DNA of 64,000 bases, from contig CP141143.1 in assembly GCA_035235625.1 (NCBI GenBank), positions 44,625,178 to 44,689,177 on the forward strand. Reading direction: 5' to 3'. The notes beneath the pieces are model-generated. The model did not search any database. It was not told the origin of the DNA and worked only from the letters and a program-made list of their open reading frames with translations. The DNA is from Saururus chinensis (lineage: Eukaryota > Streptophyta > Magnoliopsida > Piperales > Saururaceae). This document shows positions 31,301 to 64,000 of this stretch, in pieces. Made by a program: the position numbers and the translations under genes. Each line of letters starts with the position of its first letter. Positions within the stretch are counted from its first letter, which is position 1.

Positions 31301-31525
31301 GGTAGATAGGAGAGAGAGGAGAGGGAAGAGAGAGATAGAGGGTGAGGGGGAGGGGGAGGGGGAGGGAAGAGAGAGAGAGGAGAGGGAGAGGGGAGAGAGG
31401 GAGGAGAGAGAGGGTGGAGAGAGAGGATAGGGAAAAGAGAGAGAGAGAGACAGAGTGGAGAGGGAAGAGAGAGAGAGGGGAAGGAAGAGAGAGAGAGTAT
31501 TTTTTATCTTTATTTTTATTTTTAA
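28331..31525. mobile_element. CACTA-2: left part of a second CACTA element of the same family
   Basis: It begins CACTACAACAAAATTGGG, followed by TATTAGCGACGCTTATATAA and many further GCGACGC and GCGTCGC words in both orientations. No matching right terminus is found; the sequence passes into an Athila-type LTR piece near 31,527. The interior has about five tandem modules (starts near 28,850, 29,460, 30,150, 30,490 and 31,015). Each has an AT-rich part with a palindromic pair such as AATAGCGACGTATA and TATACGTCGCTATT, then a GAGAGAGG purine tract of 100-450 bp. No transposase is seen. Confidence 0.8.
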
Positions 31526-33842: not shown

Positions 33843-34590
33843 AATGTCCGGGATTTTTCTAAATTCCCGAAGTCGATCACGTGGGCATTAGGGTGTTGAA
33901 CCCCTTGACTTTCTTATAAGAATAACTTGATCATAAGTTAGAAGTGATGGATGAAACCTAAGGTAAAGGCAGTGCTAAAGTGGGAAACCCCCAAGACTAT
34001 TACAGAGATTCACAGCTTTCTCGGCCTTGCAAGTTACTACAAAAGATTCATTGAGGGATTTTCTAGCATAGCCTTGCCTATGAGCACATTGACCAAGAAG
34101 GGAGTAAAGTTTGCATGGAATGATGCTTGTAAGAGTAGCTTCCAAGAGCTAAAGAAGAGGCTGACAACTGCACCTGTGTTGACTTCGCCTTCAGGCACTG
34201 GTGGGTTTGTCATTTATAGTGATGCTTCCAAGAGAGGGGTTGGTTGTGTTCTCATGCATCATGGACGGGTGATTGCATATGCTTCCAGACAGCTCAAGAA
34301 TCATCAACAAAATTACCCAACACATGACTTAGAGCTTACAACGGTGGTCTTCGCCCTGAAGATATGGAGAGGCTATTTATATTGTCATAGTTTTGAAGTA
34401 TTTACAAATCATAAGAATTTGAAATATATTTTCTCTAAGCCAAATCTTAATATGCGCCAGACAAGGTGGCTAGAGTACATCAAGGACTATGATTTCTCCA
34501 TCCACTATCATCATGCCAAAGCAAATGTTGTAGCTGATGCTTTGAGCAGGAAAACAGAGGCAGTTGTGGCTCACATGATGCTTCATACAC
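33843..34590 (+). mobile_element. Ty3/Gypsy chromovirus-type RT end and RNase H fragment
   Basis: The clearest part is 33,951-34,598: the end of a reverse transcriptase ([20 protein letters not shown]) followed by RNase H ([51 protein letters not shown]). These words are of the Tekay/Reina chromovirus type, not Athila, so this is a piece of another element lying between two Athila-related parts. The 100 bp before it begin TGTAATGTCCGGGATTTTTC, an LTR-like start. The element is a fragment. Confidence 0.8.
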
Positions 34591-40822: not shown

Positions 40823-40827
40823 TAGGT

Positions 40828-43800
40828 ATGTTCATTAAAATGAATAAAATGCACTAAATGATGAATTATTGGACCACTTTTCCTGATGTTATATCATTTT
40901 AATCAATTAAAACAGAAGTTCCCTAAGAATGTGAATGAATTGTTACATCGTTTAAAGTTTAAAGAGACCTCTCATTTATTTGTTACTTTCGCCATAAATA
41001 TGTATTTAATTATTTTAAATAAATAGCTACTCATTTACTAAGTTTGTAGGAATGAATTAAATGCATTGAACGACGAACTAGTTAGAACACATTTAGCCAA
41101 GTTACATCCTTTTAATCAATTAAAGCCAAAGTTCGTTAAGAATGTGTGCTTAAATCATTATATCATTTAAAGTTAAAGAGATCTCTCATTTATTTGTTAT
41201 GTTTGTAATGATGAATTAAATGGTCAAAGTGACACCCCAATTTGATGGTTCTTCCTTAACCTATATAATTTCATTTGCATAACTAGATTTAGAACAAAAC
41301 ACCAAGTCCCATCTCAAATGTGTATTTAATTATTTTACATAAATACGTACTCATTTCCTAAGTTCAAAAGAATGAATCAAATGCACTAAAGTACATAACA
41401 ATCAGACAAATTTAATTCAAGTTATATCTTTTTAATTAATTAAAACAAAAGTTTGTTAAGAATGTGCACAAATTATTATATCATTCGAAGTTTAAAGGGA
41501 CCTCCCATTTATTAGCACATTGTTAATAGCAAATCAAATGGACAAAGGGAAACTACAATATCTGACCATTCTTCCTTAACTTATATGATTTCATTTGCTG
41601 AACTAGATTTAGAACAAAGCACTAAAGCTCATCACGAATGTATATTTAATTATTTTAAATAACTATGTACTCATTTGCTAGGATTGTAAGAATGAATCAA
41701 ATGCAATAAACGAGAACTAATCGGACACTTTTGATCAAGTTATATATTTTTAATCGATTACAACCGAAGTTCGTTAAGAATTTGCACAATTCATTATATC
41801 ATTCAAAGTTTAAAAAGACCTCTTAGTCATTTTTCACATTCACAATAACGAATAAATTGGACAAAGTTATACTGAAATTTGACTATTCTTCCTTATATGA
41901 TTTCTTTTGCTCACCTAGATTTAGAACAATGCATCAATGCTCGTCATGAATGTGTATATAATTATTTTAAATAAATACATGTTAATTTGTTCAATTCGTA
42001 ATAATGCATAAAACATACTAAATGATGAACAAATCAAACTACTTTTGGTTAAGTTATTTCCTTTTTATTGATTAGAAAAATGGTTTGTTAACAATGAGTA
42101 CAAATTATTATATTATTTAAAGTTTAAAGAGACCACTCATTCATTTATTATTAAATGGACAAAGTGATACCACAATTTGACCGTTCTACCTTAACTTATA
42201 TGATTTTGTTTGTTTAACTACAATAAGAATACAACACCAAAGATAGTCGCATATGTGTATTTAATTAATTTAAATAAATATGTACTCATTTGCTATGTTC
42301 GTAAGAATAAATCAAACACACTAAACGATGAACCAATCACACTACTTTTGGTCAAGTTATATCCTTTTAATCGATTACAACCGAAGCTCATTAAGAATTT
42401 GTACAAATTGTTATACTATTCAAAGTTTAAAGAGACCTCACATTGATTTGTTATGTTCATAACAACGGATTAAATGGAAAAAGTGATACCACAATTTTAC
42501 CGTTCTTCCATAATTTGCATGATTTTATTCACTTTACTTGATTTAGAACAAAATACCAAAGCTTGTCACGAAAGTGTATTTAATTGTTTTAAAAAAATAC
42601 ATACTAATTTACTCAGTTCATAAGAATGAACAAAAATGCACTAAACAACGAACCAGTCGAACCAATTCAGGTCAAGTATATATCCTTTTAATTGATTAAA
42701 ACTGAAGTTTATTAAGAATGTGCAGTAATCATTATAACGTTTAAAGTTAAAATATATCTCCCATTTGTCTGTTACATTCGTAATAACGAATCAAATGGAC
42801 AAAGTGATACCACAATTTGACTGTTCTTCCTTAACTTATTTTATTTCATTATTTTAACTAGATTTCGAGCAAAACAACAAAGCTAGTCACGAAAGTGGAT
42901 TTAATTCTTTTAAATAAATATGTACTCATTTCCTAAGTTCTTAAGAATGCATGAAATGCACTAAATGACGAACTACTCGGACCATTAAAAATTTGCACAA
43001 ATTGTTATATCATTTAAAGCTTAAAGGGACCTCATATTCATTACTTACGTTTGAAATAATGAATCAAATATACAAATTGATACCAGAGTTTGTCTGTTCT
43101 TCCTTAACCTATAAGATTTCATTATTTTAAATAGATTAAAATAAAGCACCAAATCTCGCCACAAATATTAATTTAATTGTTTTAAATAAATACATACTAA
43201 TTTGCTAATTTCATAAGAATGCATCAAACACAGTAAATGAGGAACCATTCGAACCACTTGTGGCCAAGTTACATTCTTTTAATCGATTAAAACTAAAGTT
43301 CATTAAAAATGCGTACGAATAATTATATTATTTAAGGATTAAAAAGACCTTACATTCATTTCTTGTGTTCATAATAAGAATCAAATGGACAAACTGATAC
43401 CATAATTTGACCATTTTTCCTTAACTTATATGATTTCATTCGCTTAACTAGATTATGAACAAAGCACCAAAGCTTGTAACGAATGTGTATTTAATTGTTC
43501 AAAATAAATATGTACTTATTTGCTAAGTTCGTAAGAATAAATAACATGCAATAAATGATGAACCAATCTGATCATTTTTGGATAAGTTATATCATTTTAA
43601 TCAATTAAAACCGAAGTTTGTTAAGAATGTAGATAAATCGTTATATTGTTTACAGTTTAAAGAGACCTCCTATTTATTTGTTACATTCATAATTGCGAAT
43701 AAAATGTACAAAGTGATACCACAAGTTGGTCATTCTTCCTTAACTTCTATGTTTTCATTCACTTAACTAGATTGTGAATAAAGCACCAAAGCTCGTTACA

Positions 43801-46800
43801 AATGTATATTTAATAATTTTAAATGAATACGTAATCATTTGTTAAGTTGATAAGATTGATTCAAACGCACTAAATGATGAACCAATCGGTCCACTTTTGG
43901 TTAAGTTTTATCATTTTAGTCGATTAAAACCAAAGTTCGTTATGAACATACACAAATCGTTATATCATATAAAGTTAAAATAGATAAAGTGATACCACAA
44001 TTTGGCTATTCTTCCTTAACTTATATACTTTTATTCGCTTAATTAAAAAACCCCCCATTCATTTTTCAAGTTTGTAATAACGAATTAAATAGACAAACAC
44101 TAGATTGAGAATAAAACACCAAAACATGTCACGAATGTGGACTTCATTATTTTAATTAAATACATACTTATTTGCTAAGTTCATAAGAATGCATCAAATG
44201 CACTAAACGACAAACAATTTGAACCACTTTTGGTCTGATTACATCCTTTCTATTGATTAAAACCAAAGTTCGTAAAGAATGTGCACAAATCATTATGTTA
44301 TTTGAAGTTTAAAGAGATCTCCCATTCATTTGTTACATTCGTGTTAACAAATCAAATAGACAAATTGATAACAAAATTTGACTGTTCTTCCTTAACTTAT
44401 GTGATTTCATTTGTTAAGAATGTACATAAATCATTATATCATTTAAAAATTAAAGAGACCTTCTAATGATTTGTTATGTTGTAATTATAAATTAAATGAA
44501 GAAAGTGATACCGAAATTTGACCAGTCTTCCTTAACTTCTGTGATTTTATTCGCTTAACTAATTTTAGAACAAGTACTAAAGATAGTCATGAATATATAT
44601 TTAGTTATTTTTATAAAATACATACTCATTCACTATGTTCATAAGAATAAATCGAACACACTAAATGACGAACCAATTGGACCACTTTTGGTCTAGTAGT
44701 TATATCCTTTTAATCGATTAAAACCGAAGTTCGTTAATAATGTGCATAAATCGTTATATAGTTTACAATTTAAAAAGCCCTCCCAATCATTTGTTGTGTT
44801 CATAATTATAAATTGAATGGACAAAGCTATGCCACAATTTGATCGTTCTACCTTAACTTATGTGATTTTATTCGCTTAACTTGTATTAGATAAAAGGGCA
44901 TAAGCTCATCAAGAATGTATATTTAGTTATTTTATAGAACTATGTACTCATTTACTATGTTTGCAAGAATGAATCAAATGTACAGAATGATGAACTAAGC
45001 ACACCACTATTGGTCAAATTAAATTATTTTAATCGAATGTAACTGAAGTTCGTTAAAAATGTGGACAAATGGTTATATCATTTAAAATTTAAAGATACCT
45101 CTGAATTATTTGTTATGTTCATAATTACGAATCAAGTAGAGAAAGTAATACTATAATTTAACCGTTCTTCCCCAACTTATGTAATTTTATTTGCTTAACT
45201 AGTTTTAAAACAAAGGACCCCGCTCATCACGAAATTATAAAGAGTTGTTTTAAAGAAATAAGTACTTATTTACTAATTTCAAAAAATAAACCAAACGCAC
45301 TAAAGGACGAACAAATCGGACCACTTTTTGTTTAGTTATATCTTTTTAATCTATTAAAACCGAAGTTTGTTAAAAATGTGAACAAATCGTTCTATCATTA
45401 AAGTTTAAAGAGACCTCGAAATAATTTGTTATATTTGTAATTATGAATTAAGTAGAGAAAGTGATATCACAATTTGACAATTCTTCCTTAAGTTATGTGA
45501 CTTCATTTGCTTAAATAGTTTTAGAAAAAAGTAACCAAGCTTGTCACGAATGTATATATAGCTATTTTCAATAAAGAAGTACTAATTTACTCTTCGTAAG
45601 AATATATCAAATGCACTAAATGATGAACCAATTAAACCACTTTTTGTCTAGTTATATATCCTTTTAATCGATTAAAAACGATGTTCATTAAGAATGTAGA
45701 TAAATCATTATATCGTTTAAAGTTTAAAGTGACCTCCAAATTATTGTTTAAAATCGTAATTACATATCAAATTGATAAAGTTATACCGTAATTTGACCAT
45801 TATTCTTTAACTTATGCGATGTCATTTGCTTAACTAGTTTTAGAACAAAGCACCTAGCTCGCCACAAATGTATATTTAGTTATTTTAAATATATACGTAC
45901 TTATTTACTAAGTTCGTAAGAATGAATCAAACTTACTAAACGACGAACCAATTGGACCACTTTTGTTCTATTTATATCCTTTTAATCGATTAAAATTGAT
46001 GTTTGTTAAAAATGTGCATAAATCGTTATATCGTTAAAAGTTTAAAGAGACCTTCCAATCATTTATTACATTCATAATTATAAATGAAATTAAGAATGTG
46101 ATACCATAATTTAACCGTTCTTCCTTAACATTTGTGATTTTATTTGCTTATCAAGTATTAGAACAAAACACCCAAGCTCGTCACAATGTGTATTTAGTTA
46201 TTTTAAAGAAATAAGTATACATTTACTAAGTTCTTAAGAATAAATCAAACGCACTAAATGACGTACCCATTGGACCACTTTTGGTCTAGCTATATCCTTT
46301 TAATTGATTAAAACCGAACTTCGTTAATAATGTACACAAATCGTTATATTGTTTGAAGTTTAAAAAGACAACCAAATCATTTGTTACATTCATAATTACG
46401 AATCTAATAGAGAAAGTGATACCACAATTTTACCGTTCTTCTTTATGTGATTTTATTCGCATGACTAGTTTTTGAACAAAGTAACAAAGCTCGTCACGAA
46501 TTTATATTTAGTTGTTTTAAATAAATAAGTACTAATTTACTAAGTTCTTAAGAGTAAATCAAATGAAGTAAACGAAGAACTAATTAAACCACTTTTGGCC
46601 TAGTTATATCCTTTTAATCGATTGAAACTGAAATTCGTTAAGAATATGCACAAATCATTATATCATTTATAGTTTAAAGAGACCTCATAATCATTCTTCC
46701 TTAACTTATGTGACTTTATTTGCTTAACTAGTTTTAGAAAGAAGTACACAAGATCGCCATGGATGTGTATTTAGTTGTTTTAAAGAAATAAGTACACATT

Positions 46801-49800
46801 TACTAAGTTCGTAAAAATGAATGAAACACACTAAACGAGGAACAAATCGAACCACTTTTTGTCTAGTTTTATCCTTTAATCAATTAAATTGAAGTTCGTT
46901 AATCATATGCACAAATTGTTATATCGTTTAAAGTTTAAAGAGAACTCCCAATTATTTTTTACCTCCGTAAATACAAATCAAAGGGAGAAAGTGATGCCAA
47001 TATTTGACCGTTCTTCCTTAACTTATGTGATTTCATTTGCTAAACTAATTTTAGAACAAAGTACCCAAGCCCATTACGAATATATATTAAGTTTTTTTAA
47101 ATAAATAAGTACTCATTTACTATTTTTCGTGATAATGAATAAATGTATTAAACGACGACAAAATTGGACCACTTTTAGTCTAGTTATATCCTTTTAATCA
47201 ACTAAAACCAAAGTTCGTTAAAAATAAGCACAAATCGTTATATCGTTTAAAGTTTAAAAGACCTCATAATCATTTGTTACGTTGTAATTATGAATTAAAT
47301 GGAGAAAGCGATGACATAATTTAACTGTGCTTCCTTAACTTATGTGATTTTATTCGCTTAACTAGTTACTAAGTAACCAAGCTCATTACGAATGTATATT
47401 TAGTTGGTTCAAATAAATAAGTACTAATTTACTATGTTCGTAAGAATGAACCAATTAGACCACTTTTGGTCTAGTTATATCCTTTTAATCAATTAATAAC
47501 GAAGTTCGTTAAGAATGTACATAGATCATTATATCATTTAAAGTTTAAAGGGACCTCCCAATCGTTTGTTACGTTCGTAATTACGAATTAAATAAAGAAA
47601 GTGATACCAAAAATTGACTCTTCTTCCTTAACTTATGTGATTTCATTCGCTTAACTGATTTTAGAAAAAAACACTGAAGCTCTTCATCAATTTATATTTA
47701 GTTGTTTTAAAGAAATATGTAGTCATTTACTATGTTCGTAAGAATAAATCAAATGCACTAAACGACGAACCAATTGGACTACTTTTAGTCTAGTAGTTAT
47801 ATCTTATTAATCAATTAAAACCGAAGTCCGTTACTAATGTGTACAAATCATTATATCTTTTAAAGTTTAAAAAGGCCTCCTAATCATTTGTTACATTTGT
47901 AATTACGAATTAAATAGAGAAAACGATGCCAAAATTTGACTGTTCCTCCTTAACTTATGTAATTTCATTCGCTTCACTAGTTTTAGATCAAAGGACATAA
48001 GCTCTTCACAAATTTATATTTTGTTGTTTTATATAAATACGTACTCATTCACTATGTTCATAAGAGTGAATTAAACATACATAACGACAAACTAAATGGA
48101 CCACATTTGGTCAAGTTATATTCTTTTAATCGATTAAAACTAAAGTTCGTTATGAATGTGTACAAATCGTTATATCGGTAAAAATTTAAAGAGTCCTCTG
48201 AATTATTTGTTATGTTCATAATTATGAATTAAATGAAGAAAGTGATACTACAGTTTGATTGTTCTTCCTTATGTAATTTCATTCGCTTAACTTGTTTTAG
48301 AACAAAGTAACCAAACTCGTCACGAATCTATATTTAGTTGTTTTAAATATATAGTTACTAATTTACTAAGTTCTAACGTCGAACCAATTGGACCACATTT
48401 GGTCGAGTTATATCCTTTTAATCGATTAAAACAAAAGTTCGTTAAGAATGTGCACAAATCATTATATCGTTTACAATTAAAAGTGACCTCCCAATTTTTT
48501 TCTTATGTTCGTAATTGCAAATTTAATAAAGAAAAATGATACCAAAAATTGACTATTCTTCCTTAAGTGATTTCATTCGCTTAATTAATTTTAGAACAAA
48601 GCAACGAAGCTCGTCTAAAATATATATTATGTTGTTTTAAAGAAGTACATACTCATTTACTATGTTCATAAAAATGAATCAAACACATTTAACAACAAAA
48701 CAATTGGACCACTTTTTGTCTAGTAGTTATATCTTATTAATCGATTAATAACGAAGTTCGTTAATAATGTGCATAAATCATTATATCATTTAAAGTTTAG
48801 AAAGACCTCCCAATTATTTGTTAGATTCGTAATTATGAATAAAATAGAGAAAACGATGCCACAATTTGACTATTCTTCCTTAATTTATGTGATTTCATTC
48901 GCTTAACTAGTTTTAGATCACAAGACAAAAGCTCACCATGAATTTATACTTAGTTTTTTTATAGAAATACGTACTCATTTACTATGTTCGTAAGAGTGAA
49001 TCAAACATGCAAAATGATGAGCCAATTGGACCACTTTTGGTCTAGTTATATCCTTTTAATCGATTAAAACCAAAGTTCCTTAAGAATATATGTAAATTGT
49101 TATATTGTTCAAAGTTTGAAGAGATCTCCCAATCATTTATTACGTTCGTAATTATAAATCAAATGGAGAAAGCGATACCAGTTTAATTACCGTTCTTCCT
49201 TATGTGATTTCATTCGCTTAACTAGTTTTAGAACAAAGCACCAAAGCTCGTCACATATATATATTTAGTTTTTTTAAATATATACATACTCATTTACTAT
49301 GTTTGTAAGAATAAATTAAACAAACTAGTAGTTATATCCTTTTAATCAATTAAAACTAAAGTTCATTAATAATGTGTACAAATTGTTATATCAATTAAAT
49401 TTTAAAAAGACCTCCCAATCATTTGTTATGTTCGTAATTATGAATCAAATGGAGAAAGTTATACCATAATTTGACCATTCTTCCTTAACTTATGTGATTA
49501 CATTCGCTTAACTGGTTCTAGAACAAAGCACCCAAGCTCGTCACGGATGAGTATTTAGTTGTTTTAAAAAAATAAGTACACATATATTGAGTTATTAAGA
49601 ATAAATGAAATGTACTAAAGGATGAACTAATCAGACCACTTTTCATCTAGTTATATCCTTTAAATCGATTAAAAACGAAGTTTGTTAATAATGTGAGCAA
49701 ATTGTTATATCACTTAAAGTTTAAAGAGACCTCCCAGTTATTTTTTATAATCATAATTACGTATCAAATGGAGAAAGAAATAACATAATTTGACCGTTCT

Positions 49801-52800
49801 TCCTTATCTTATGTGATTTTATTTACTTAACTAGTTTTAGAACAAAGCACCAAAGCTCGTTATAATTTATTTTTTGTTGTTTTAAAGAAATAACTACTTA
49901 TTTACAAAGTTCACAAGAATAAATCAAACACGCAAAACCACGAATGAATCGGACCACTTGGTATAGTTATATCGTTTTAATTGATTAAAATCGAAGTTTG
50001 TTAAGAATGTATACAAATCATTATATCATTTAAAATTTAAAGACACCTCTAAATCCTTTGTTACGTTCGTTATTACGAATCAAATGGAGAAAGTGATATA
50101 ACAATTTAACTATTCTTCCTTAACTTATGTAATTTTATTCGCTTAACTGGTTTTAAAACAAAGCACCCGAGCTCATCACGAAAGTATATTTAGTTATTTT
50201 AAAGATATATGTACTCATTTAATAAGGTCGTAAGAATGAATCAAACATACTACACGACCAACCAATTGGACTATTTTGGTCTAGTTATATCCTTTTAATC
50301 AATTAAAACTAATATTCATTGAGAATGTGCATAAATGGTTATATCATTTAAAATTTAAAGAGACTTCCTAATCATTTGTTACATTCTTAATTACGAATCT
50401 AATGGAAAAAGTGATACCACAATTTGACTGTTCTTCCTTAACTCTTGTGATTTTATTCACTTAACAAGTTTTAGAACAAAGCACCCACACTCATCACGAA
50501 TGTATATTTAGTTCTTTAAAATAAATAAGTGCTAATTTATTATGTTCCTAAAAATAAATAAAATGCACTAACGATGAACCAATCGGACCACTTTTGGTCT
50601 AGTTATATTGTTCTAATCGATTAAAACTAAAGATTGTTAGTAATGTGTATAGATCATTATATTATTTAAAGTTAAAAATGGCCTATGTATCATTTGTTAC
50701 ATTCGTTATTACGAATTAAATAGAGAAAGTGATACCACAATTTGACCTTTTTCCTTAATTTAAGTGATTTCATCCGCTTAACTAGTTTTAGCACAAAGCA
50801 CCCAAGCTCATCACGAACGTATATTTAGATGTTTTAAAAAAATAAGTATTCATTTACTATGTTTGTAAGAATGAATTAAATACACAAAATAACGTAATAA
50901 TCGGACCACTTTTGGTCAAGTTATATGCTTTTAATCGATTAAAACCAAAGTTTATTAAGAATGTGTATAAATCATTATATCGTTTAAAGTTTAAAGAGAA
51001 CTCCGAATTATTTTTTAGAATCGTAACTACAAATCAAATGGAGAAAGTGATACCATAATTTGACCTTCCTTAAATTATGTAATTTCAATCGCTTAACTAG
51101 TTTTAAAACAAACCACCCAAGCTCATCACAAACATGTATTTTGTTGTTGTAAAGAAATAAGTAGACATTTACTATGTTCGTAAGAATGAATGAAACACAC
51201 TAAACGACAGACCAATCGGACCACTTTTAGTCTAGTTATATCCTTTTAATTGATTAAAACAGAAGTCCATTAATAATGTGCACAAATCATTATATCGCTT
51301 AAAGTTTAAAAAGGTCTCCCAATCATTTGTTACATTTGTATTTCTGAATCGAATGGAGAAAGTGATGCCTCAATTTGACCGTTCTTCCTTAACTTTTGTG
51401 ATTTCGTTTGCTTAACTAGTTTTAGAACAAAGTTCCTAAGCTTCTCACGAATGTATATTTAGTTGTTTTAAAGAAATACGCACTCATTTACAGTGGTTGT
51501 AAAAATGAATCAAACACACTAAATGACGAAATAATTGGACCACTTTTGGTCTAGTTATATCTCTTTAATTTATTAAAACCAAAGTTCGTTAAGATTGTGA
51601 ACACATCATTATATCGTTTAAAGTTTAAAGAGACCTTCTAATCATTTGTTACATTCGTAATTACGAATGAAATGGAGAAAGAGATACTATAATTTGACCA
51701 TTCTTCCTAAACTTATGTGATTTCATTCACTTAACTAGTTTTAGAACGAAGCACCCAAGCTTGTCATTAATGTACTAATTTACATATTTCGTAAGAATGA
51801 ATCAAACGCATTAAACGATGAACAAATCGGACCAATTTTGGTCTAGTTATATCCTTTTAATCGATTAAAACCGAAGATCATTAAGAATGTGTACAGATCG
51901 TTATATTATTAAAAGTTTAAAGAGACCTCCGAATGATTTGTAATGTTCATAATTATGAATCAAATGGATAAAGTGATACCACAATTTGACCATTTTTCCT
52001 TAAGTGATTTCATTCGCTTAACTAGTTTTAGCACAAAGCACCCAAGCTCATCACGAGTGTATATTTAGATGTTTTAAAAAAATAAGTACTCATTTACTAA
52101 GTATGTAAGAATAAATTAAACGCACAAAGCGATGAAATAATTAGACCACTTTTAGTCAAGTTATATGCTTTTAATTGATTAAAACCAAAGTTTGTTAAGA
52201 ATGTGTACAAATTGTTATATCATTTAAAGTTTAAAGTGACCTCCGAATTATTGTTTAAAATCGTAATTACATATCAAATTGAAAAAGTGATACCATAATT
52301 TGACCGTTCTTCCTTAACCTATACAATTTCATTCGCTTAACTAGTTTTAGAACAAAGCACTGAAGCTTGTCACGAATGTATATATTTAGTTGTTTTAAAG
52401 AAATACGTACTCATTTACTAAGTTCATAAGATTTAACCAAACGCACTTAACAACAAACCAATGGGACCTTTTTTGGTCTAGTTATATCCATTTAATTAAT
52501 TAAAACTGAAGTTCGTTAAGAATGTGCATAAATATTTATATAGTTTAAAATTTAAAGAGAACTCATAATCATTTGGTGCATTCATAATTACGAATCATAC
52601 GGAGAAAGTGATACAAAAATTTCACAATTGTTCGTTAACTTATGTGATTTTATTTGTTTAACTAAGAACAAAGCACCCATGCTCGACACGAATATCTATT
52701 TAATTGTTGTAAGGAAATAAGTACACATTTACTAAGTTTATAGGAATGAATAAATCGTACTAAATGATAAACCAATCCGACTACTTTGAAAGGCATCTTA

Positions 52801-53045
52801 ATCTTTTGTTACGTTCATAATTATGAATTAAATGGAAAAAATGATACTACAATTTGACCGTTCTTCCTTATGTGATTTTATTCACTTAACTAGTTTTAGA
52901 ACAAGGCACCCAAGTTTGTCACGAATGTATATTTTGTAGTTTTAAAGAAATAACTACTAATTTACTAACTTCATAACAATAAATTAAATGCACAAAATGA
53001 CAAACTAATTGTACAACATTTTGTCTAGTTTTATCCTTTTAATCG
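40828..53045. repeat. Satellite array: about 40 tandem monomers of about 315 bp
   Basis: One monomer reads, in order, CTCATTTACTAAGTTCGTAA, ACGACGAACCAATCGGACCA, CTTTTGGTCTAGTTATATCC, TTTTAATCGATTAAAACCGA, AGTTCGTTAAGAATGTGCAC, TTTAAAGTTTAAAGAGACCT, GTTCGTAATTACGAATCAAA, AATTTGACCGTTCTTCCTTA, TTCGCTTAACTAGTTTTAGA and CAAGCTCGTCACGAATGTAT. The landmark GGACCACTTTTGG recurs about every 300-320 bp from 40,871 to 53,015. Copies at 40.8-44.5 kb are more diverged than those in the centre; a few are shortened (42,970; 44,430; 52,780). All short open frames in the array are chance. I do not recognise the monomer as a named satellite. Confidence 0.95.
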
Positions 53046-53159
53046 ATTAATAAAAATGAGTTCCCAAATTTGGTGGTTGAAGATGCAAGCATGATGCACA
53101 GAAAATGGAATGTCATTTTTCATAATATGCTCACGGGTGGTGGCATGACTTGAACGGAT
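53046..53159. other. Junction between satellite and Copia LTR
   Basis: The last recognisable monomer word is TCCTTTTAATCGATTAATAA at 53,033-53,052. The next 110 bp are neither satellite nor certainly LTR. The Copia LTR start is most likely the TGTTGGACCACGG at 53,160, but it could begin earlier. Confidence 0.4.
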
Positions 53160-56100
53160 TGTTGGACCACGGTATGGGCTCGGGCCCGGTTTGGTCCAAT
53201 GTTGTCGTGCTCCGGGTGAACCGGTATGGGCCACAGGGTTCAAGGGTGGTGGGGGCGGTCGCGCCGACCCCACCTATGCCATCGTTACACTAATTCGATT
53301 GGGGCCGCCGACGTCACACACGCATACTAGGCATTAGACTAGGTTGTGTATTAACACATTGTGGGGCCCAGATGCACAAATTATGTGTCAAGGGTGGGAC
53401 CTATGGTTAGAGAGGGTTCGACCCTATTGCAGGCTTGGCCGTGTGCAGGGGGTCCAGGTCTCTGCGGGCTCTAAGAGACAGAGCCCACTCCCATTGTGTT
53501 TGAACCTAAAGAGAAACTGGAAGAAACAAGCAAGGAAGCCCATTTAGAATTGTCCACTTATAGGCCTGCCTAAAGGAGGAAAGGAGAGGTTATTTAAGAG
53601 AGAACAAGAGAGGAGGAAGCCCTAGTCTTGGGCCGCCCCAGTATCTTCCTCCTCTCTCCCAATTGCCGCCCCCCCCCCCCCCCCCCCTCTCTATCTTGGT
53701 TCGCTTGTACAAAGAAGGGAGAATCCCTGCTGCTGGCCGCCCCTCTTCTCCCCTCTCCTTGATCTCTTTGGCGGGCTGAAAGAAGGAGAAGACTCTCCTC
53801 CTTAGCTGGAACGTGGAGGCTGATCCAAGGGGCGATCCTTGCTGTGATTTCTTTGATCCAAGTGTTGGTTTGTGAGGGATCAACACAAGTAATCTCCTTT
53901 TGCCATTGCTTGATGATTCATGAGATTGGTGTGTGCAGGCTGATCTCTTGGAGAGTGTGCAAGGGCTGGACAGCCCAGGTCAGTATGTGTTTTATCCAAT
54001 TTGTATTTTATATTTGCATGATTCATTTATTGGATATGTATTATTGCTAATTGATTAGTGATTTATGCATGATTGTTGTAGATTCAATTAAAAGTCTGAT
54101 TTTTTATTGGTGCGCCACCCCCATCCCACTGTGCTTCAACTTGTCCGGCCACTTTTTAGTGGTATCAGAGCCTAATTGAGGGTCGTTTGTCACTGATCCA
54201 ATCAAAAATTGATTTTGATTACCCGATGTAGGTTTTACATGCTAGAATTGGGGATTTTGTGAAATTGATGACTCTACTAGATCCAATCATAGGGCTTTTA
54301 TTTTTAAGTTCAAATTGGATATATATGGGACTGTTGTGATTGATTTGCATGATGGAATTGCTGTGATTTGGAGTTTAATTGAAGATTGCATGTTTGTATG
54401 CTTACAAGGGCAAAATAGTCAATTCGGCTTTGAATTTTTTGCATAATTAATTCTCTGATAAAGTTCTAGGCACACACCCTCTTTATGGTCAGCAAGTTAA
54501 TTGATTTATTTTTTCATTAAAATAAATTAATTTTGTGAATTATAAAGGTGTGAATTGACCATTTTAGCCCTAGGGGCATTTTGGTCAATACACACTTGTT
54601 GTCTGTGTTCTGATAATTCTCTATCCAGAATTGTGGTTCACTGATTTGAATAATCTTTGATAATTTGCTGTGTAAAATAGTTGGTGTGTATTTTAGGGTG
54701 AAAAGACAAAAACAACCGTAGGGCTATTTTGGTAATTTCACACCAAAATTTTTTTGGACGGAAATATTAAATTCCAGCAGCCTCTAAATTGTTTATTTGC
54801 TGTGTTTAAGTGCTCAGTAGGGTGTTTAAGGGATTCTAAAATAATAAAACACCTAGATAACCTAATTAGGGTAACTTCCTTAAGGGGGTTAAGGGGTAGT
54901 TAGGGTTATTTTTGGAAAGTGACCTAAACCATAATTAAGGTATATCTAAACTTAGCAACTCAGCATAATATACTCAATTTTCCCTTAAGCTTATTATTAG
55001 ATTAAGAGTTCTCTAAGCAATTGTCTTATTTAGAAGTGGTTAGCCTTCCATAAATAGTATTAATTTCCTATTCTCTGCCTTTTCTTCTGTAGTTGCACAA
55101 TGGCTTCTGTCACGGGAGCGAAGCTTTGCCTAGCGTCCGCACTTGTGATGGCCTGGCTGCACCGTGCAACTAGCAGCCACTCTCTTCCCTTCCTACTCGT
55201 ATGCGCAAGGGAAAACAAACAAAACAACCACAAAGCAACACAAGTCCGACCTGGTGCAAGGGTCTCCGCCCAAGCTATGTAAATCAATCCAGCATGAAGT
55301 ACACAAGTAGGGAGATGGCTGGGCCGAACCACTAAGGCTGAGAACTCTCCCCTCTTTCTCCCTGGTTCGCTGTGCAGGAAAATCAAAGTACTTTCATGCC
55401 TTGGCCGCCCCAAACCTTCTCCTTATATAGACTCAGCCATAGGCTAGCCGTCCTAGATCAACTAGAAGTACAGAACCCACCCAATACAAGTGTTTTCACC
55501 CTCTCCAACTCTCACCCCAAAATTCCGGGATTGCATAGATTAGGAGACCTTCGCGAGTCCGTCTTCCGCTAGAAGTCCTCCTCCATCCTGCCTCCAAGAG
55601 TCAACCAATCCAAGGGAACCAACCAACCAACTCCCGTCCGTCCTAGGAGTGTAGCCAGCATGCATATACGAGTCCTGTCCTTCCTAGGAGTCTGCCGCCC
55701 AGTCTCCTACTCCAACTAGGAATGCCCCCAACCAGCATCGCTGAATCCTATCCGCCTTAGGAGTCCTCCCCTAAGTCCAAGCAGCGCCCCGCTTCGCCGC
55801 TAGAGTCCCGCCCGCGCAAGGACTCCTACCCAGCCTGCTCCGCAAGGCGAGTAGCTCGTCCGGAACATCTCCCGCGCTGTCCCAGCATCCGTCTGTGCCC
55901 AAGGGGTTGTCTAGGCTATCCGCTGCCTAGCAAAACTCAGCTGTCCGCTGCCAAGTATGGGGGTAGCCGTCCCCTTTCTGCATCTGTCAAGTTTAGGGGG
56001 TAACACCTTCCAAGATGGTCACTTCAAAAGTAAGAAAAATTGAGAAGCTGAATGCTGACAATTATCTGGTGTGGAAGAGAATGATACATCATATCCTGAC

Positions 56101-57910
56101 TCATTTTGATCTTGCTCATGTCATTGAGAAAATCATTGAGCCACTGCCAGAAGGTTCTTCAGCTGCTCAGAAGAAAGCTTATGAAAAGCTGAGGGAGGAT
56201 GACAACAAGGCTAGGTCCACTATTCTAACTCTTTGAGAAGTACAAGTCTGCCAGAGAGATGCTGGAAGCAGTTTCTGTTAGGTATGGGGAGCAGACTAAA
56301 GCTCATTAGAGGATGCTGCACTCTAAGTATTAAAACTTCAGGATGAGGGAAGGACATGATGTTAATGAGCACCTGAGTGCCATGTCCATCATTGTTGATG
56401 ACCTGGAGACACTAGAGGACCCCATCTCTAAGGGAGTCCAAATGTCTACAGTGTTGAACAACCTTCCCAAATCTTGGGAGAGTGTGGTGGTCTATCTGAA
56501 TACGAGTGACCAGAAGATTACAATGAAGGCTCTGACTGCCAAGCTAAGGCTTGATCAAGAAAGGAGGAAATATTTGAAGCTTTCTGGGGGTACTGCTACT
56601 GCCAACCTGGCACAAAACTTTGGTGAGGGCAAGAAAGGTGGAAAGGGGTCTGGTCCCTCTAACAAGAAAGCTTTCAAGAAGAAGGAAGAGAAGCCTCAGA
56701 ACGAGGGCACTGAAAAAGGGAATGACAAACCCAAAGGTGCATGTTTCAAGTGTGGCCAGGTGGGCCACTTCAAGGCTAACTAACCCTAGAAAGATGACCA
56801 TTCAAGCAACGACAACAAGGGAAAGAGCAAGCAGATTGTGTGTGTTGTCTCTGAAGTGATGATTGCTGACATTAAGGAGAAGACTTGGTGGTTGAACTCA
56901 TGAGCTACAGTGCATGTTCCGCACTCTAGGGGAGCTAGGGGTGAGATGATTAACCTGATGTCTAGCCTGAACAAAGTCTTCATGGGAAACAACACATACA
57001 GTGAGGTGGAGGCTATGGGGAACTACAGGATTCCTCTAAAGGATGGGTCTACCCTAGTCTTGACTGATGTACTCTTTGCTCCCTCCATCAGAAGGAACCT
57101 AATTTCAATTCCTGTTCTGACCAAGAAGGGGTTTGAGGTTAGGTTCAAGGGGAGTAAGGCTACTATGGGCAAGGGTTGATTTGTGTTATTTACTGCTTCT
57201 TTAGTTGATGGCTTATATTGCCTAAATGTGATGAACTCTTCTGAATCTAATGAAATAAGTGCTTCTGAGTATATTGTTATGTCTGTGGTTGATGCCCTGT
57301 TGTGGCATATGCGTTTGTGTCACATTAATGTAGATAAGCTACATAGGATGTTGAACGCTAGGTTGTTACCCAAAATATCCAAAGACCTTTATGTGTGTGT
57401 GTGGATTGCTTATCAGGAAAGATAAGTAGGCAATCCTTCCAAAAGGGACAAAGGGCAAATGAACTCTTAGGGATGGTGTATTCTGACATCTGTGGGGCCC
57501 TGGATGTTCAGACCCGCAAAGGGATGACATATTTCATTACATTTATAGATGACTATTCAAGATATAGGTACATGTATTTAATAACAGGAAGTTTGATGCC
57601 TTAGATAAATTCGAGGAATTTAAAACTGAGGTAGAGACTCGGTTAGGCAGGAAAGTAAAAATCCTAAGGACTGACAAGGGTGGCAAGTACACCTCTAACC
57701 TGTTTAAAGACTACTGTACTGATCAAGGAATAGTTCATCAGTACACCCTATCCTACACTCCACAGCAAAATGGAGTGGCAGAAAGGAGTAATAGGACGCT
57801 TATGGACATGGTTAGATCCATGCTAAATCACTATGAGTTAGGAACCAACTTCTAGGGTGAGGCTTTAGACACCGCCGTGTACATTCTAAATCGTGTACCA
57901 ACTAAGGTGT
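53160..57910 (+). mobile_element. Ty1/Copia fossil (LTR, primer site, gag, protease region, integrase)
   Basis: Parts in order: 5' LTR about 53,160-54,155; primer-binding site TGGTATCAGAGC at 54,160-54,171, complementary to initiator tRNA-Met; leader to about 55,100; gag region about 56,015-56,790 (KIEKLNADNYLVWKRMIHHI, ending in a zinc knuckle CFKCGQVGHFKAN); protease region about 56,880-57,180; GAG-pre-integrase (LLWHMRLCHINVDKLHRML) and integrase (YSDICGALDVQT, TFIDDYSRY, SYTPQQNGVAERSNRTLMDM) to 57,905. RT and RNase H are not in the window because another element begins at 57,911. A solo LTR lies at the gag start. It is broken in several places. Confidence 0.85.
55103..56010. mobile_element. 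Solo LTR nested in the Copia element
   Basis: The LTR proper is 55,108-56,005 (898 bp), starting TGTCACGGGAGCGAAGC and ending AGGGGGTAACA, with flanks GCTTC and CCTTC (one mismatch in a 5-bp duplication). It sits at the beginning of the Copia gag region. Its C-rich body (55,600-55,960, with repeated CCTAGGAGT words) has no gene. Confidence 0.7.
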
Positions 57911-58258
57911 TGTTAACGGATGTCCACAATGGCGTGGCGGCCGGCATGAAGGAAGGGACCGGCATAGGAAAGTCGGGAAAGGGGAGAGGGGACAGCATGG
58001 CCGCCGGACAGGAGGGAGAGGCAGAGAGGAGAGGGGAGGAGACAAGATAATAATTCATTCACTAATCAACTTAGGGCATAGCCCTTACACTTAAATAGGT
58101 AGTCCTAATGGGCTCACTAACAAGTGCCTAAGGCCCAATAACATAATTAAAAGAAAACCTTAACTAATAACCCTATTTACCTAAATGCCCTTATTACATA
58201 ATTACCTAATTACCCTAGCATGTGGCCCCCAGTGGTAGCCCCTAGAACGTTTACAACA
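57911..58258 (-). mobile_element. LTR of a minus-strand Ty3/Gypsy-type element
   Basis: On the minus strand the LTR starts TGTTGTAAACGTTCTAGGGG and ends GTGGACATCCGTTAACA (348 bp). Directly upstream of its start, on the minus strand, is a purine-rich GCGGAAGCGGGGTAGAA, as expected of a polypurine tract, preceded by CTCGAGGACGAGGTGA, a word common at the 3' end of plant Gypsy polyproteins. This therefore looks like the 3' LTR of an element that extends rightwards past the window. On the left it abuts the Copia integrase; the candidate 5-bp duplication there is GGTGT (57,906-57,910). Confidence 0.7.
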
Positions 58259-58419
58259 TTCTACCCCGCTTCCGCATCACCTCGTCCTCGAGGTGACCTT
58301 AAACTCCAAGCATTGGGCCCACCATATCTTTGTTCTGAACAACCGGTCCCGAAACTGTGAATGCAGCTGAGTGCTTCTGAGTAATGTGGCTGGAGTCTGG
58401 GGAGAGAGTTTCCTAGCTT

Positions 58420-58840
58420 GTATGGTGAATTCATATAGCTTGAATGATGCCTGGAGGACCTGGAGTCCTCCCAGCCAGGTGGTTGAACACAGTGCTGAGA
58501 GTGGTGAAGACGGAGAACCAGTCCATTCCAGCAACATCAAATATCTTGGACACAATGATGAACCTCAGCACAATGAACAGGCAGCTACCTCCCACTCCTG
58601 TCTCCAAAACCCTCTGGCCATCTGCTCCAACTACCTGCACTCGTCCATTTCCCCGGATAACATAAGTCACTTGGGAAGAAGAGTCACAAGAAAATCCTCG
58701 AAGCATTAATGTTCCCTCTGTTGCTTTCTGAACACCACCAGGCACCAGGGTATCCAACAATTTTAAATCCTTATGTTCTTCTTGTAACCACTGCTCTAGT
58801 TGGGCTACAATTACTGGTGAGACTGTTGACATAAGTATAA
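58420..58840 (-). pseudogene. 11S-globulin-like cupin gene fragment (C-terminal cupin domain)
   Basis: The minus strand reads [70 protein letters not shown] and, after a frame change, [11 protein letters not shown]. This is the second cupin barrel of the plant RmlC-like 11S-type proteins (Arabidopsis At2g28680 type), whose corresponding words are GFSCDSALQVTYI, GRVQVVG, LFIVPRFFVVSKIAD, WFSI and HLAG. The N-terminal cupin and the C-terminal tail are missing. Upstream residues ([19 protein letters not shown]) are unassigned. It is dead, lies 3' of the 14-3-3 fragment and shares its orientation. Confidence 0.75.
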
Positions 58841-58879
58841 TTGATGCTCCAAGTAGGAGTGCTGCTATTGATCCCTCAC

Positions 58880-59490
58880 CTAATTCATGTTTTGAAGCTT
58901 CTTTGATCTCGTCATCAGCATCCTCAGAGATGTCAGACGTCCAGAGAGTCAGGTTGTCTCTGAGGAGCTGCATGATCAACATTCTGTCCTTGTAAGATTC
59001 TTCTCCAAATGTGTCCAACTCAGAGATGGCCTCATCGAAAGCCTGTTTTGCAAGATGGCAAGCACGATCTGGAAAGTTCAGAATTTCATGTTAAAACACT
59101 GAAAAGTTGGGTTGAGTAGGAGCAAGTTCAGCAACAACGATATCCTGAGTAGACTTATAGGCCAACAATGTGCTCTCAGCAGCATCCTTCCTTCCTCTCA
59201 GCTCCTGCCTTGAATTCAGCAAGGTACCTATGATAATCACCTTTCATCTTGAGGTAAAATACCTCGGACTCTGCTGTGGTGTATGACGGAATGAGGTGAG
59301 ATTCCAAAAGCTTCAAGATCCCATCGCGGATCTTGCTATGCTCCCTTTCAATGTTACCCTTGTACTCCTTAATCATGGTCACATGATCCACATTTCCCCT
59401 GTTCTCCTCCTTCTGTTCAATGGAGGATATGATCCTCCATGACGCCCTCCTAGCTCCAATCACATTTTTGTATGCAACTGAGAGGAGATT
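58880..59490 (-). pseudogene. 14-3-3 (GF14) gene copy, main part
   Basis: The minus strand carries [80 protein letters not shown] and [20 protein letters not shown], the phosphopeptide-binding helices of a plant 14-3-3 protein. The reading passes the usual intron sites (after YKSTQ and after LAKQ) without an intron, so it is a copy of spliced RNA. The frame is lost after GAERKE, and a short stretch before NFSVF is missing. The first 45 residues are separated by the solo LTR and lie at 62,684-62,822. It is dead. In life, 14-3-3 dimers bind phosphoserine proteins in signalling. Confidence 0.9.
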
Positions 59491-62400
59491 TGTCATGCCC
59501 CGGCACTGCCCGACCTGAGCCGAACCCGGTCCAGGGGCCGGTCAAGCGCACGGGGGCGACAAGGAGAATTGAAAGATGGTTTAGCGGAAGACATGCCCTA
59601 ATCACGGGCTATCTAACAAAATTACGGAGTATACGCACCACTATGAGCAAGAGTAAATAAGCAGAAATGAAAGAGTTACTTTAACTCTAAGATAACTAAA
59701 ATCTCAAACCCACTATAGGCTCCCAAAATGAGTCTCAAATAATCCAACATAATAATGTAGCACAAACCAAAATGAGAACCACACACAAAGGTTCTAATCA
59801 TAAAAGCATAAACAAGGAAACAAGTCACATAATGGGTCTCCACAATCACTCCCAAGTCGTCTACGATCTTTTCTCATAGAGGAGATCCTGTCCATCAGTG
59901 TGTCACGCCATGCAACCCCAAAATAAAAGCATAAGAAAGAGGGGTGAGTTTAATAAACTCAGCAATGGTTTTTAATATAATTATAATCATCGGGAACATG
60001 ACGGCATAGTAACATAACCATTTAGATCAAAGATTGACAAGATGTATCATTTTCTGATCACACATACACATCACCTAAACCTGCATCATAGTGTATAATT
60101 CACATGGTGTCATTCACATCATATCAACCTGCATGAGATGTATCTCTAACATACATTTCAAATCATGCATCAACATCATATCAACCTACATGAGATGTAT
60201 CTCTAACATACATTTCATATCATGCATCAACATCATATCAACCTACATGAGATGTATCTCTAACATACATTTCATATTATGCATCAACATCATATAAAGA
60301 ATGTCTCCATCAAAGAGTAATCACAATTTAGTGTCACACAGACGGGAACACAAACAAGGCCACGAAGGTGTGTCATGGTCCAAATTCTACACAAGAATAT
60401 AAGAAGATCGGGGTTGTCGGCCCCTAAAGCTGCTCGCTTGGGCAAAACACATAGTAGAGTCCGAATCTCACACAGAGAACCTCGAGCAGGGGTGTTCGCC
60501 CTAAGACATCTCCTGCGGTGGGAGAGAGCCCGAATTCCCACACAGGGAACCCTGGAACACATGGTAGCTGGTGCACAGAGCATACCACTCTAGATTCTCA
60601 GGGTCCAGAAGACAATCATAATAATCTCAATCCGCAAGACAAGTACATAACTCGTCCCCATATATCTCAAATTTAATTAGACTCAACCCGGGGAGTGCAC
60701 ATGTTCCACATAGGAACTCAAATCAAAACATGTCCTTTCAGACCAATCAAGTTTGGATTAAGCCACGGCCGATTAATCTGGCAAGCAATTTCACCACATT
60801 GCATCCAATCGATCAAGTTCGATTAATCTCGATAAAGCCTCAATTGGAAATCCATTTCATGATGCATGCAACATGGTACATACGTGGGCAAGGCATACAT
60901 GAATCCTAATTCATGATAAGTGCTCTCATTAGCCCCTCATGCATCATTCATAATCATAATATCAATCCTCATCATCATCATTAAACCCCACATGTGTGTG
61001 TGCGTACATAGTAGAAGCACTTCACTCAATGTTTATCAACATGCTTGTAATTAACTCACCATCACACTACACATGTGCATTACCATTTAATCATGAATTC
61101 TAGTGGAAATCATAGGAGAAGAACCATTAAAATCATATCCTAACCACAAGCTAAACCTATATAAGATCATTTACTTCATACTTGAGTCAAGACATAACAC
61201 TAACATTCACACATCATTTAACCACATCTTATCATGATATCAGTCCATTAGTATGTTGTAGCTCTACTGAAAATATACTCAACCGTAGAGAATCAACCGC
61301 TCATAACTTCAAGATGGCAATTCCAACATCATATATCCAACCACAAGCCATTCCACATAATTCTAAATATATACCACAACTTCAAAACATCAATGGTATA
61401 CCCTTCCAAGTAGCTTACTATAGCTCAAAACACTCCACAGAAACATAAAAATAATATTTTGGAGTAGATATGTCGAAATAAGCAACATACAAAAAATGGT
61501 CAAATTCTGCAATGTAGCCGTTCGAACGCCCTGTAGGGCCGTTTGATTGGCTAAATAGGAAAAATGCCAAAATTATAGTGTTGCCATTCAAACGCCCTGT
61601 TCTAATGCCAACAAAGCAATTTTGGTGATCTTCTTCATTTCAATTTTTCAAACCGAAACTCCATTGATGAAACTTAAAATCTCCATCTAACAACTCAAAT
61701 GCCATTAAAATTTCACCATACCTTCCAGAAAGCTAATCTACATCATAACAAGATAAAACCCTAAGAAATCGGGATAAAAGATTACCATTTACTAATCTCA
61801 CCATTAAAGCACTAAATCAAGTAAATCCACTCCAAATAAACCACAAAATCGAGATTTTTACCATAGGAAGACTGAAATTTCGAAAGTCCATTACCTTATC
61901 CCTTGATTAGGCTTGGATTTGACGGTCACCCTTCTTGAAAACCTTTCAAAAACATAGAGTTTAAATTAAACTCCATTAAAATCGATTTAACATAGAAAAC
62001 CTTAATGAAAAGCTTAGATCTAGGGCTTGTTAAACATAAAAAATGGATTTTTAGATCTAGGGTTTGAAGTAAAGATACAAATCAATAGTTTTGATGTTTA
62101 AAAACGAATCAAAACAAAGGGCAAATGATGGATTTAGAACGGATTAGGAGAAAATCTAGGTTTTAAGGCTTAATTAGAGGATACATACCTTAAACTCCTT
62201 CTAATCCGGGCCTAATTGGGGAATTAGGCCTAACCTCCCTCTCCTAGCTTATTCCCAAAATGAAAATGGCTCAGGTCTTTCTATTTATAGTAGGGTTTGG
62301 GGTGTACATACGTAATTAGTGGGGTATGAATAGAAAAATAGGCTAAAAATAGGTATTTTAACTATTTGAGCACTAATTAAATCTGGGAAAATTATGAAAT

Positions 62401-62688
62401 TTTTTATAAAGTCTTGTGTTGATGGTGGGGCCCACAAGGAGTCCCACCAAACCCTAATTTTTGGAAAATTAGTGAAAAATAAAAAAAATCCCAAAAATTT
62501 AAATTTGACCCAAAATCACTTAAAACCAATAATTATAAAGTTGATTTTGATTAAAACCATAAGAAACACCCTTTATTTTTGAAACCACCGAATTAATAAG
62601 AAAATGAGTTAAGCACGCAATAACCGATAATTAAATTGAAACGAAAACCAGTTTAGAAATGAGAGTCCTTACAAGATTCCTTGCTTCT
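59486..62688. mobile_element. Long solo LTR (3,193 bp) inserted in the 14-3-3 copy
   Basis: The LTR proper is 59,491-62,683, starting TGTCATGCCCCGGCACTGCC and ending GTCCTTACA, flanked by a perfect 5-bp duplication AGATT (59,486-59,490; 62,684-62,688). It belongs to the same family as 22,134-24,795 and carries a 3-unit tandem repeat at 60,124-60,294. No internal region is present. The duplication falls inside the 14-3-3 coding sequence between its EARN and LLSVAY residues, so it struck an exon sequence. Confidence 0.9.
60124..60294. repeat. Three 57-bp tandem repeats inside the solo LTR
   Basis: Each unit carries TCAACCTRCATGAGATGTAT, CTCTAACATACATTTCA and CATGCATCAACATCATA, with very few differences among the three. 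Confidence 0.85.
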
Positions 62689-62822
62689 ATTGTATTTTCC
62701 TTGCCATCCATAGCCTTGATGACTTTCTCCATGAACTCCCCCATTTCCTCATACCGCTCAACCTGCTCAGCCAGCTTGGCCATGTAGACTTTCTCCACCC
62801 TCGATGATTCAAATGAAGACAT
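62684..62822 (-). pseudogene. 14-3-3 copy, N-terminal part
   Basis: From ATG at 62,822 the minus strand reads [20 protein letters not shown], then [17 protein letters not shown] and ENTIEARN. This is the N-terminal dimerisation region of a plant 14-3-3 (usual [17 protein letters not shown]). The fragment ends at the AGATT duplication of the solo LTR, and the next residues continue at 59,490. Only about 60 bp separate this ATG from the importin-5 fragment, so the native 14-3-3 leader is absent. Confidence 0.9.
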
Positions 62823-62884
62823 GATTACCTAACTTTGGTTTTCGAAGTCAAAATTAAGCGTGATCACAAATTCAGTAGCTAATA

Positions 62885-63172
62885 GGAAAGTCTTTTACTC
62901 CCATTCATCCGCCTCATCGATCTGCAGTCCCAAACCACCACGAGCTGTCGTTGTAGGAATTTTGGCTTGGTTCCAGCCAGCTCAATGAGCAATTCGAGCG
63001 CCGCCTGCACAGTGCCCTCTTGCCCAGAGTGGAGTGCTTGGATCAGGGTCTGTATCATCACAGAAAGGAGGTCTTGTAACCATTCTGATTGGACGCCGAC
63101 GAAAGGCATTGGGTGAAGTTGATAGCAGCACTGAGAACGACAATCCTCACATCAAGATAGCATGGGAGAGGC
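62885..63172 (-). pseudogene. Importin-5 (importin beta-3) gene fragment
   Basis: The minus strand reads LDVRIVVLSAAINFTQCL and then, one frame over, VQSEWLQDLLSVMIQTLIQA, LHSGQEGTVQAALELLIELA and GTKPKFLQRQLV. Plant importin-5, a nuclear import receptor built of HEAT repeats, has matching VRLAALSAAINFIQCL, FQDLLPAMMQTL, ALELLIELAGTEPKFLRRQL segments. About 90 of roughly 1,100 residues are present. It is a dead internal fragment between the fructokinase and 14-3-3 fragments, in the same orientation. Confidence 0.85.
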
Positions 63173-63497
63173 GAAATCCCTGAATGGGCGATCTGTATAG
63201 AGACAGAGAAAGATAGCGACGATCCCAGAGCCATCCAACCAATACCCGGAGCCGCATATCTTTCACAACTGAGATTTTCTGTTCCAAACATCACTCCCCC
63301 AGAGTGCAAGCCGAAATCTAGGCTGAGGAAGAACCAATTTTCCACCGATTCTTCTCCGGCAAAATTCCTGCTATTGAAGATTTCACCTAATCGTAGAGGT
63401 ATTTCATTCAGGTAAATCGTAACCAGAGGGCTAAGAAAATCCCTTAAGATCAGGATCACCTCCCGGGAGAGAATCTCATCCACTCCCCGTTCTGAAG
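63173..63497 (-). other. Unassigned stretch between fructokinase and importin-5 fragments
   Basis: A 203-codon open frame crosses this interval on the minus strand, but its upstream part is an out-of-frame reading of the fructokinase fragment and its downstream part enters the importin-5 fragment. The middle (for example NWFFLSLDFGLHSGGVMFG) matches nothing I recognise. It could be decayed fructokinase or a further captured piece. Confidence 0.35.
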
Positions 63498-63940
63498 AAA
63501 GAAAAATTCCAGATCTGTCGCTGCATAGATTTGGCTCCCTATGTTCATAATCTACTCCTTTGCCATCTCCAAAGATGGGCATTGTGTCAGCCACAGGTTC
63601 GGATCCTACGGCAGCAGTGCCCTGCTCTCCTTGGCCACCTTCATCACCTCTAGATACACGGATCTGCATGGCTCTGGGAGCAAGCTGAGGAACCCGTAAT
63701 GAAAGATCTTGGCCGATTTGATGAGGGAAAGGTTGAACCTGACATGGGTGAGGGGCATGTCGGCACTGGGGTGGCGGTAGAAGATGAACGTGTGTTCGCC
63801 ATCGGTGTGGCAGGTGAGGAAGGCAAGGGTTGTGTAGGTGCTCTAGTCGAAGAGGATGCCCTCACCCACCACCCCATTTCCTCCCAGGACCCCTGGTAGT
63901 ATGAGCCCAAACTTGCCTTTCTGCACCGGCAGAGATGAAT
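63498..63940 (-). pseudogene. Fructokinase (pfkB family) gene fragment
   Basis: The minus strand carries KGKFGLILPGVLGGNGVVGE, TTLAFLTCHTDGEHTFIFYR, HPSADMPLTHVRFNLSLIKS, AKIFHYGFLSLLPEPCRSVY, LEVMKVAKESRALL and DPNLWLTQCPS. Plant fructokinases show [68 protein letters not shown] in the same order. This is the central part of the enzyme that phosphorylates fructose with ATP. The N-terminal substrate region and the C-terminal GAGD catalytic motif are not present, and the frame contains stops. It may continue beyond the right edge of the window. Confidence 0.85.
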
Positions 63941-64000
63941 GTCTTGAACACATTTTGCTTCTTCTCTGTTTCCAGAATTGGTGAAGGGACAGCCCAACAC

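Follow-up and report, generated by a model that had tools for sequence, protein, structure and literature searches.

Fragments of five unrelated host genes in what is probably a non-autonomous LTR retrotransposon nested in a Copia element

The right-hand end of the window, by which we mean the whole 64,000-nucleotide stretch of DNA analysed here, holds what is probably (at about 70%) the 3′ half of a non-autonomous LTR retrotransposon carrying template-switched host transcripts. The putative element, perhaps Ty3/Gypsy-like, lies on the minus strand inside a dead Copia element, and its right half, with a second LTR, would extend beyond position 64000. Family matches identify fragments of five unrelated host genes, namely fructokinase, importin-5, 14-3-3, a beta-hydroxyacid dehydrogenase and an 11S-like cupin, all on the minus strand and in one orientation. 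Read leftwards from position 64000, the minus strand presents 80 bases without an identified source, fructokinase, a block that we call X, importin-5, 14-3-3, dehydrogenase and cupin, and at its 3′ end this block runs into a purine tract and an LTR of the same orientation as the gene fragments. An earlier, sequence-only reading had listed fructokinase, importin-5, 14-3-3 and cupin in this order and on this strand, and matches in Pfam, NCBIfam and PDB bear out all four; its count of at least four host genes is exceeded, the dehydrogenase fragment (NAD_binding_2) being a fifth that it had overlooked. The features are as follows.

56334 to 57910, plus strand: decayed Copia element, gag to integrase, interrupted by the gene-bearing element (Pfam matches, reading frame)
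57906 to 57910, no strand: GGTGT, candidate left copy of a target-site duplication, from the sequence; its partner would lie to the right of 64000
57911 to 58258, minus strand: 348-bp LTR with ends TGTT...AACA, taken to be the 3′ LTR of the element
58259 to 58275, minus strand: purine-rich tract directly before the LTR, 14 of 17 purines, imperfect
58278 to 58295, minus strand: possible pol remnant reading HLEDEV (reading frame)
58441 to 58697, minus strand: 11S-like cupin fragment with one frameshift (PDB match; outer limits by eye)
58698 to 58880, minus strand: beta-hydroxyacid dehydrogenase (NAD_binding_2) fragment, the fifth gene, about 60 codons (Pfam, NCBIfam, PDB)
58881 to 59490, minus strand: second part of the 14-3-3, to near the C-terminus, with one frameshift, one stop and one 7-codon deletion
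59491 to 62673, no strand: 3183-bp TG...CA repeat, a later insertion inside the 14-3-3 fragment, read as a solo LTR (termini, AGATT duplication, relative in the window)
62679 to 62822, minus strand: first part of the 14-3-3, from the start codon at 62822 (Pfam, frame)
62860 to 63159, minus strand: internal fragment of importin-5 with two frame changes and one stop (outer limits by eye)
63165 to 63487, minus strand: block X, with one minus-strand frame open over its whole length
63488 to 63920, minus strand: internal fragment of fructokinase with three stops (Pfam, NCBIfam, PDB)
63921 to 64000, minus strand: stretch of 80 bases upstream of fructokinase that runs off the window

The 14-3-3 fragment, the longest of the five, bears most directly on whether the host sequence was acquired as RNA. 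Its single pieces match Pfam at 1e-5, 3e-38 and 1.1e-18, and the joined pieces match GF14-C in PDB at 9.2e-112. Against rice GF14-C, residues 2–144 align without a gap at 80% identity and residues 142–235 align with one 7-residue gap at 74% identity, with one frameshift between the two aligned segments plus one stop. Removal of the 3183-bp insert by script leaves a single open 14-3-3 frame across the insertion site. With the insert set aside, the coding region is free of introns from the start codon to near the C-terminus, in agreement with the earlier claim that introns standard in plant 14-3-3 genes are missing. Of the 11 14-3-3 genes of grape, 9 are split into at least four exons, and within groups the introns keep their positions (PMC6090852; this and the other papers cited here are represented by excerpts, and statements about them hold for those excerpts). 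Because the fragment is intron-free over this length, in contrast to the multi-exon genes of grape, it most likely derives from a spliced RNA.

The insert starts TGTCATGCCC, ends CCTTACA, and is flanked by a perfect AGATT duplication (59486–59490 and 62674–62678), a pattern that arose by chance in 18 of 20,000 shuffles of the two flanks. A relative at 22134–24795, in the same orientation, shares both ends, each copy being about 3 kb long; its end scores 122 against the last 220 bases of the insert, compared with a maximum of 80 in 30 shuffles, and its flanks, GAGAG and TAGAG, agree at 4 of 5 bases. Consistent with a solo LTR, Pfam at 0.01 gave no match in the 10 frames scanned among the 20 of at least 45 codons that lie wholly inside the insert. 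We read 59491–62673 and 22134–24795 as solo LTRs of one diverged family, and the TG...CA ends, the perfect AGATT duplication and the relative in the window together rule out that the 3.2-kb gap in the 14-3-3 is an intron. The gene fragments had earlier been described as lying end to end: their order and orientation stand, but the 14-3-3 is split by this insert, which had gone unmentioned.

The window as a whole, which its gene content suggests to be plant nuclear DNA, is rich in repeats, with nested and decayed elements. A long tandem array occupies 40827–52790 (unit of about 318 bases, copies roughly 70–80% alike) and is possibly a satellite. Two pairs of direct repeats, 3994–5594 with 6356–7917 and 32392–33839 with 36562–38065, each of about 1.5 kb and about 85% alike, are possible LTR pairs; between the members of the second pair, a frame at 33948–34595 resembles by eye the end of a Gypsy reverse transcriptase. 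Many GA-rich microsatellite blocks lie in 18690–31500, some of them within repeated units of about 1 kb.

Each of the four shorter gene fragments could be a single exon and is too short to show intron loss. Read through its three stops, the fructokinase fragment matches Pfam PfkB at 3.6e-7, above the cut-off, and its longest single open piece does so at 1.3e-5, just below it (25.1 against 25.8 bits); NCBIfam fructokinase (6.4e-8) and the PDB fructokinase 3ljs (1.2e-7) agree. Plant fructokinase genes have 2 to 9 exons (PMC5319016) and those of cassava 4 to 7 (PMC5713366), and since exon numbers vary from 2 to 9 this fragment decides nothing on introns. The importin-5 fragment matches Pfam TPR_IPO5 above the cut-off both as one open piece (5.4e-6) and with its frames joined (1.3e-6). 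PDB yielded no usable match for it; one at 1.3e-6 was discarded because it added up the repeats of a designed-type repeat protein, none of which was significant by itself. Block X, for which Pfam and PDB gave no convincing match (best PDB E value 0.87), is possibly a sixth captured transcript. Pfam found no match in two frames of the 80-base stretch at 63921–64000. No source is matched for about 320 bp in block X, for these 80 bp at the right-hand edge and for the 145 bp that precede the pol-like motif.

The dehydrogenase fragment matches Pfam NAD_binding_2 at 2.9e-4 and 1.0e-4, the latter with 22.8 bits against a cut-off of 21, and the NCBIfam 2-hydroxy-3-oxopropionate reductase model at 5.8e-6, far below the whole-protein cut-off; the PDB matches are 1vpd (0.058) and 1yb4 (0.27). 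NCBIfam cut-offs are set for whole proteins, and none of the gene fragments reaches them, the fructokinase match also staying far below, as would be the case for fragments. The cupin fragment matches the 11S globulin 3qac in PDB at 2.6e-8, with other 11S globulins also matched, and Pfam at 0.0092, below the cut-off (16.0 against 22 bits); NCBIfam gave no match for it. The nearest plant relatives of the dehydrogenase piece would presumably be fused dehydrogenase-aldolase proteins, and those of the cupin piece, we assume, 11S-like proteins outside the storage globulins. The 14-3-3, dehydrogenase and cupin are joined without a spacer in one open frame of 219 residues. Because every gene piece but the dehydrogenase has stops or frameshifts, and the dehydrogenase runs to only about 60 codons, this frame is the sole candidate for a product.

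At its 3′ end, the gene block meets the LTR. The earlier claim of a 348-bp TG...CA LTR is confirmed, with ends at 57911 and 58258; the termini mirror each other over four bases only, and TATTTAA occurs at position 162 of the LTR sense strand. The polypurine stretch reported beside it is likewise present, in moderate form at 14 of 17 purines. No second full copy of the LTR occurs in the 64-kb window. On its other side lies the Copia element, in which the Retrotran_gag_2 match is strong (2.2e-14) and integrase gives weak matches that miss their cut-offs (rve_3 6e-5, rve 8.1e-4) and that both stop short of 57910/57911. The Copia frame that begins at 57856, after a TAG at 57853–57855, is open to 57909, and the LTR abuts at 57910/57911. 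Of the proposal that the LTR interrupts a Copia integrase, it therefore holds that the Copia frame reaches the LTR, with the integrase matches below cut-off and the exact break placed by eye.

The base sequence following 58258 is TTCTA, not GGTGT, and Pfam at 0.01 gave no match in the 23 frames scanned among the 32 listed plus-strand open frames from 58258 to 64000. A solo LTR at 57911–58258 was rejected on these grounds, TTCTA being followed by no Copia sequence in those 23 of 32 frames. The LTR, not being solo in Copia, is therefore one end of something that has the gene block as its internal part. A plus-strand reading of the LTR was also rejected: a primer-binding site would begin with TGG, and the plus strand after 58258 does not. 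The direct abutment of the block on the purine tract and LTR, together with TTCTA in place of GGTGT or Copia after 58258, thus supports placing the block inside an LTR element, whose second LTR would lie outside the window. The HLEDEV remnant at 58278–58295, which we take to resemble the C-terminal end of chromodomain Ty3/Gypsy polyproteins, is the only trace of Gypsy pol domains, and Pfam gave no match for its frame; a Gypsy affiliation of the element may be suggested by it. No gag, reverse transcriptase or primer-binding site of the gene-bearing element itself is seen within the window, which ends at 64000. The element would accordingly depend on helpers, since its own gag and reverse transcriptase are not seen, unless these lie beyond 64000. 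It is now decayed.

Other origins of the block are less well matched by this arrangement. It is improbable that several mRNAs were joined by a LINE into a chimeric processed retrocopy, with the LTR as an unrelated neighbour or a later insertion. LINE-mediated retrocopies are known in dicots (PMC4838847), and a fungal tripartite chimeric pseudogene has been ascribed to LINE template jumps (PMC2104539). However, the 2554 bases of the gene block contain no A-run of six or more, and the LTR is no later insertion into the block, because what lies beyond it is Copia and not more of the gene block. Gathering of the block at the DNA level by a Helitron or Pack-MULE, with later joining to or insertion beside an LTR, is very improbable, although multi-gene capture is typical of Helitrons and Pack-MULEs; the absence of introns from the 14-3-3 coding region and the abutment of the block on the LTR through the purine tract argue against it. 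Among maize gene-fragment captures, Helitrons account for 1194 and other DNA transposons for 462, against at least 189 for LTR elements (PMC2774510). Helitron or Mutator termini around the block had been named in advance as evidence that would count against an LTR element. A simple scan of both strands from 58259 to 64000, which would miss imperfect hairpins, found no CTRRT end of the Helitron type preceded by a perfect hairpin, and none of the four inverted repeat pairs in 50000–64000 bounds the gene block, the far end of which lies outside the window; this outcome holds up to position 64000. That truncated host genes piled up by chance next to a broken LTR, or that the assembly is at fault, might be entertained in a window so rich in nested and decayed elements and with the far end of the block outside it, but is hardly credible when five unrelated fragments share one orientation, the last three of them in a 219-residue open frame without a spacer, and when the clean nested insertion shows the assembly to be sound there.

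The LTR-element reading fits template switching by the element's reverse transcriptase between packaged RNAs, a fit judged from the block itself: shared orientation, a spliced 14-3-3, the lack of any A-run of at least six bases, and an LTR with a purine tract at the 3′ end are all consistent with it. Chimeras of this kind are usually put down to template switching. During reverse transcription in a virus-like particle, the enzyme would leave the element RNA for packaged cellular mRNAs and return to it, whether in a single cycle or in several, so that fragments of fructokinase, importin-5, 14-3-3, dehydrogenase and cupin would be joined in the sense direction. The LTRs would enable the chimera to integrate, after which it would decay and another repeat, read as a solo LTR, would arrive in the 14-3-3 piece. 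Template switching has been reviewed as a mechanism for plant LTR elements (PMC13317346), and transduced genes lie mostly in the sense of gag and pol (PMC7264820). The 9 disabling changes in 651 codons, counted by eye with the in-frame deletion and the nested insertion excluded, show the spread expected of a single age (Monte Carlo p 0.47), and because this test is weak, it does not separate one-step from stepwise capture. Were one or a few cycles to have run across five or more spliced mRNAs, which is possible but rather doubtful, the element would be a concatemer of one particle's transcripts, and the 219 residues that link 14-3-3, dehydrogenase and cupin in frame could be made as a single protein. 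The sequence-only reading had proposed an LTR element with spliced fragments, formed at the RNA level by template switching. The intron-free 14-3-3, the adjoining purine tract and LTR, and the five fragments in the orientation of the element favour this proposal, and the spliced state that it assumed is borne out for the 14-3-3; an RNA origin of the other four fragments would follow from the reading as a whole.

Elements of this general kind are already known, and include the LTR elements with captured genes of maize, rice and sorghum (PMC2774510, PMC3726574). Among the closest known systems is Bs1 of maize, an LTR element of a plant that likewise combines segments from several unrelated host genes, pieces of three in that case (PMC13317346). 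In contrast to Bs1, the present element has at least five genes, different ones, with one LTR in the window, and it is known solely through its sequence. In pepper, retroduplicated NLR sequences that have lost their introns lie inside LTR elements, about 72% of which are without gag or pol coding potential (PMC5664825); host sequence that has lost its introns, here the 14-3-3, is common to both cases, whereas the pepper elements hold NLR genes, some single elements having two or three, and here the five fragments come from unrelated genes and all but one of them contain stops or frameshifts. A maize survey found more than one standard nuclear gene in none of 425 LTR elements with gene fragments, under the conditions used (PMC2774510), compared with five here. 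Among the matches listed in literature on retroelement gene capture and Bs1, largely outside subscription papers and represented by excerpts, there is no LTR element that carries five host genes. A set of five unrelated fragments in one element is thus unusual, and the earlier description of an unusually rich case is favoured by five fragments as against three in Bs1, to the extent that the second LTR is present.

If it is, the element would hold more host genes than Bs1, the most-cited example in the literature covered, as far as the excerpts of that literature extend. Plant LTR elements would then be able to gather many unrelated transcripts, which would provide a route to exon shuffling, and the junctions, read against the donor genes, would record the template changes of a reverse transcriptase on cellular RNA.
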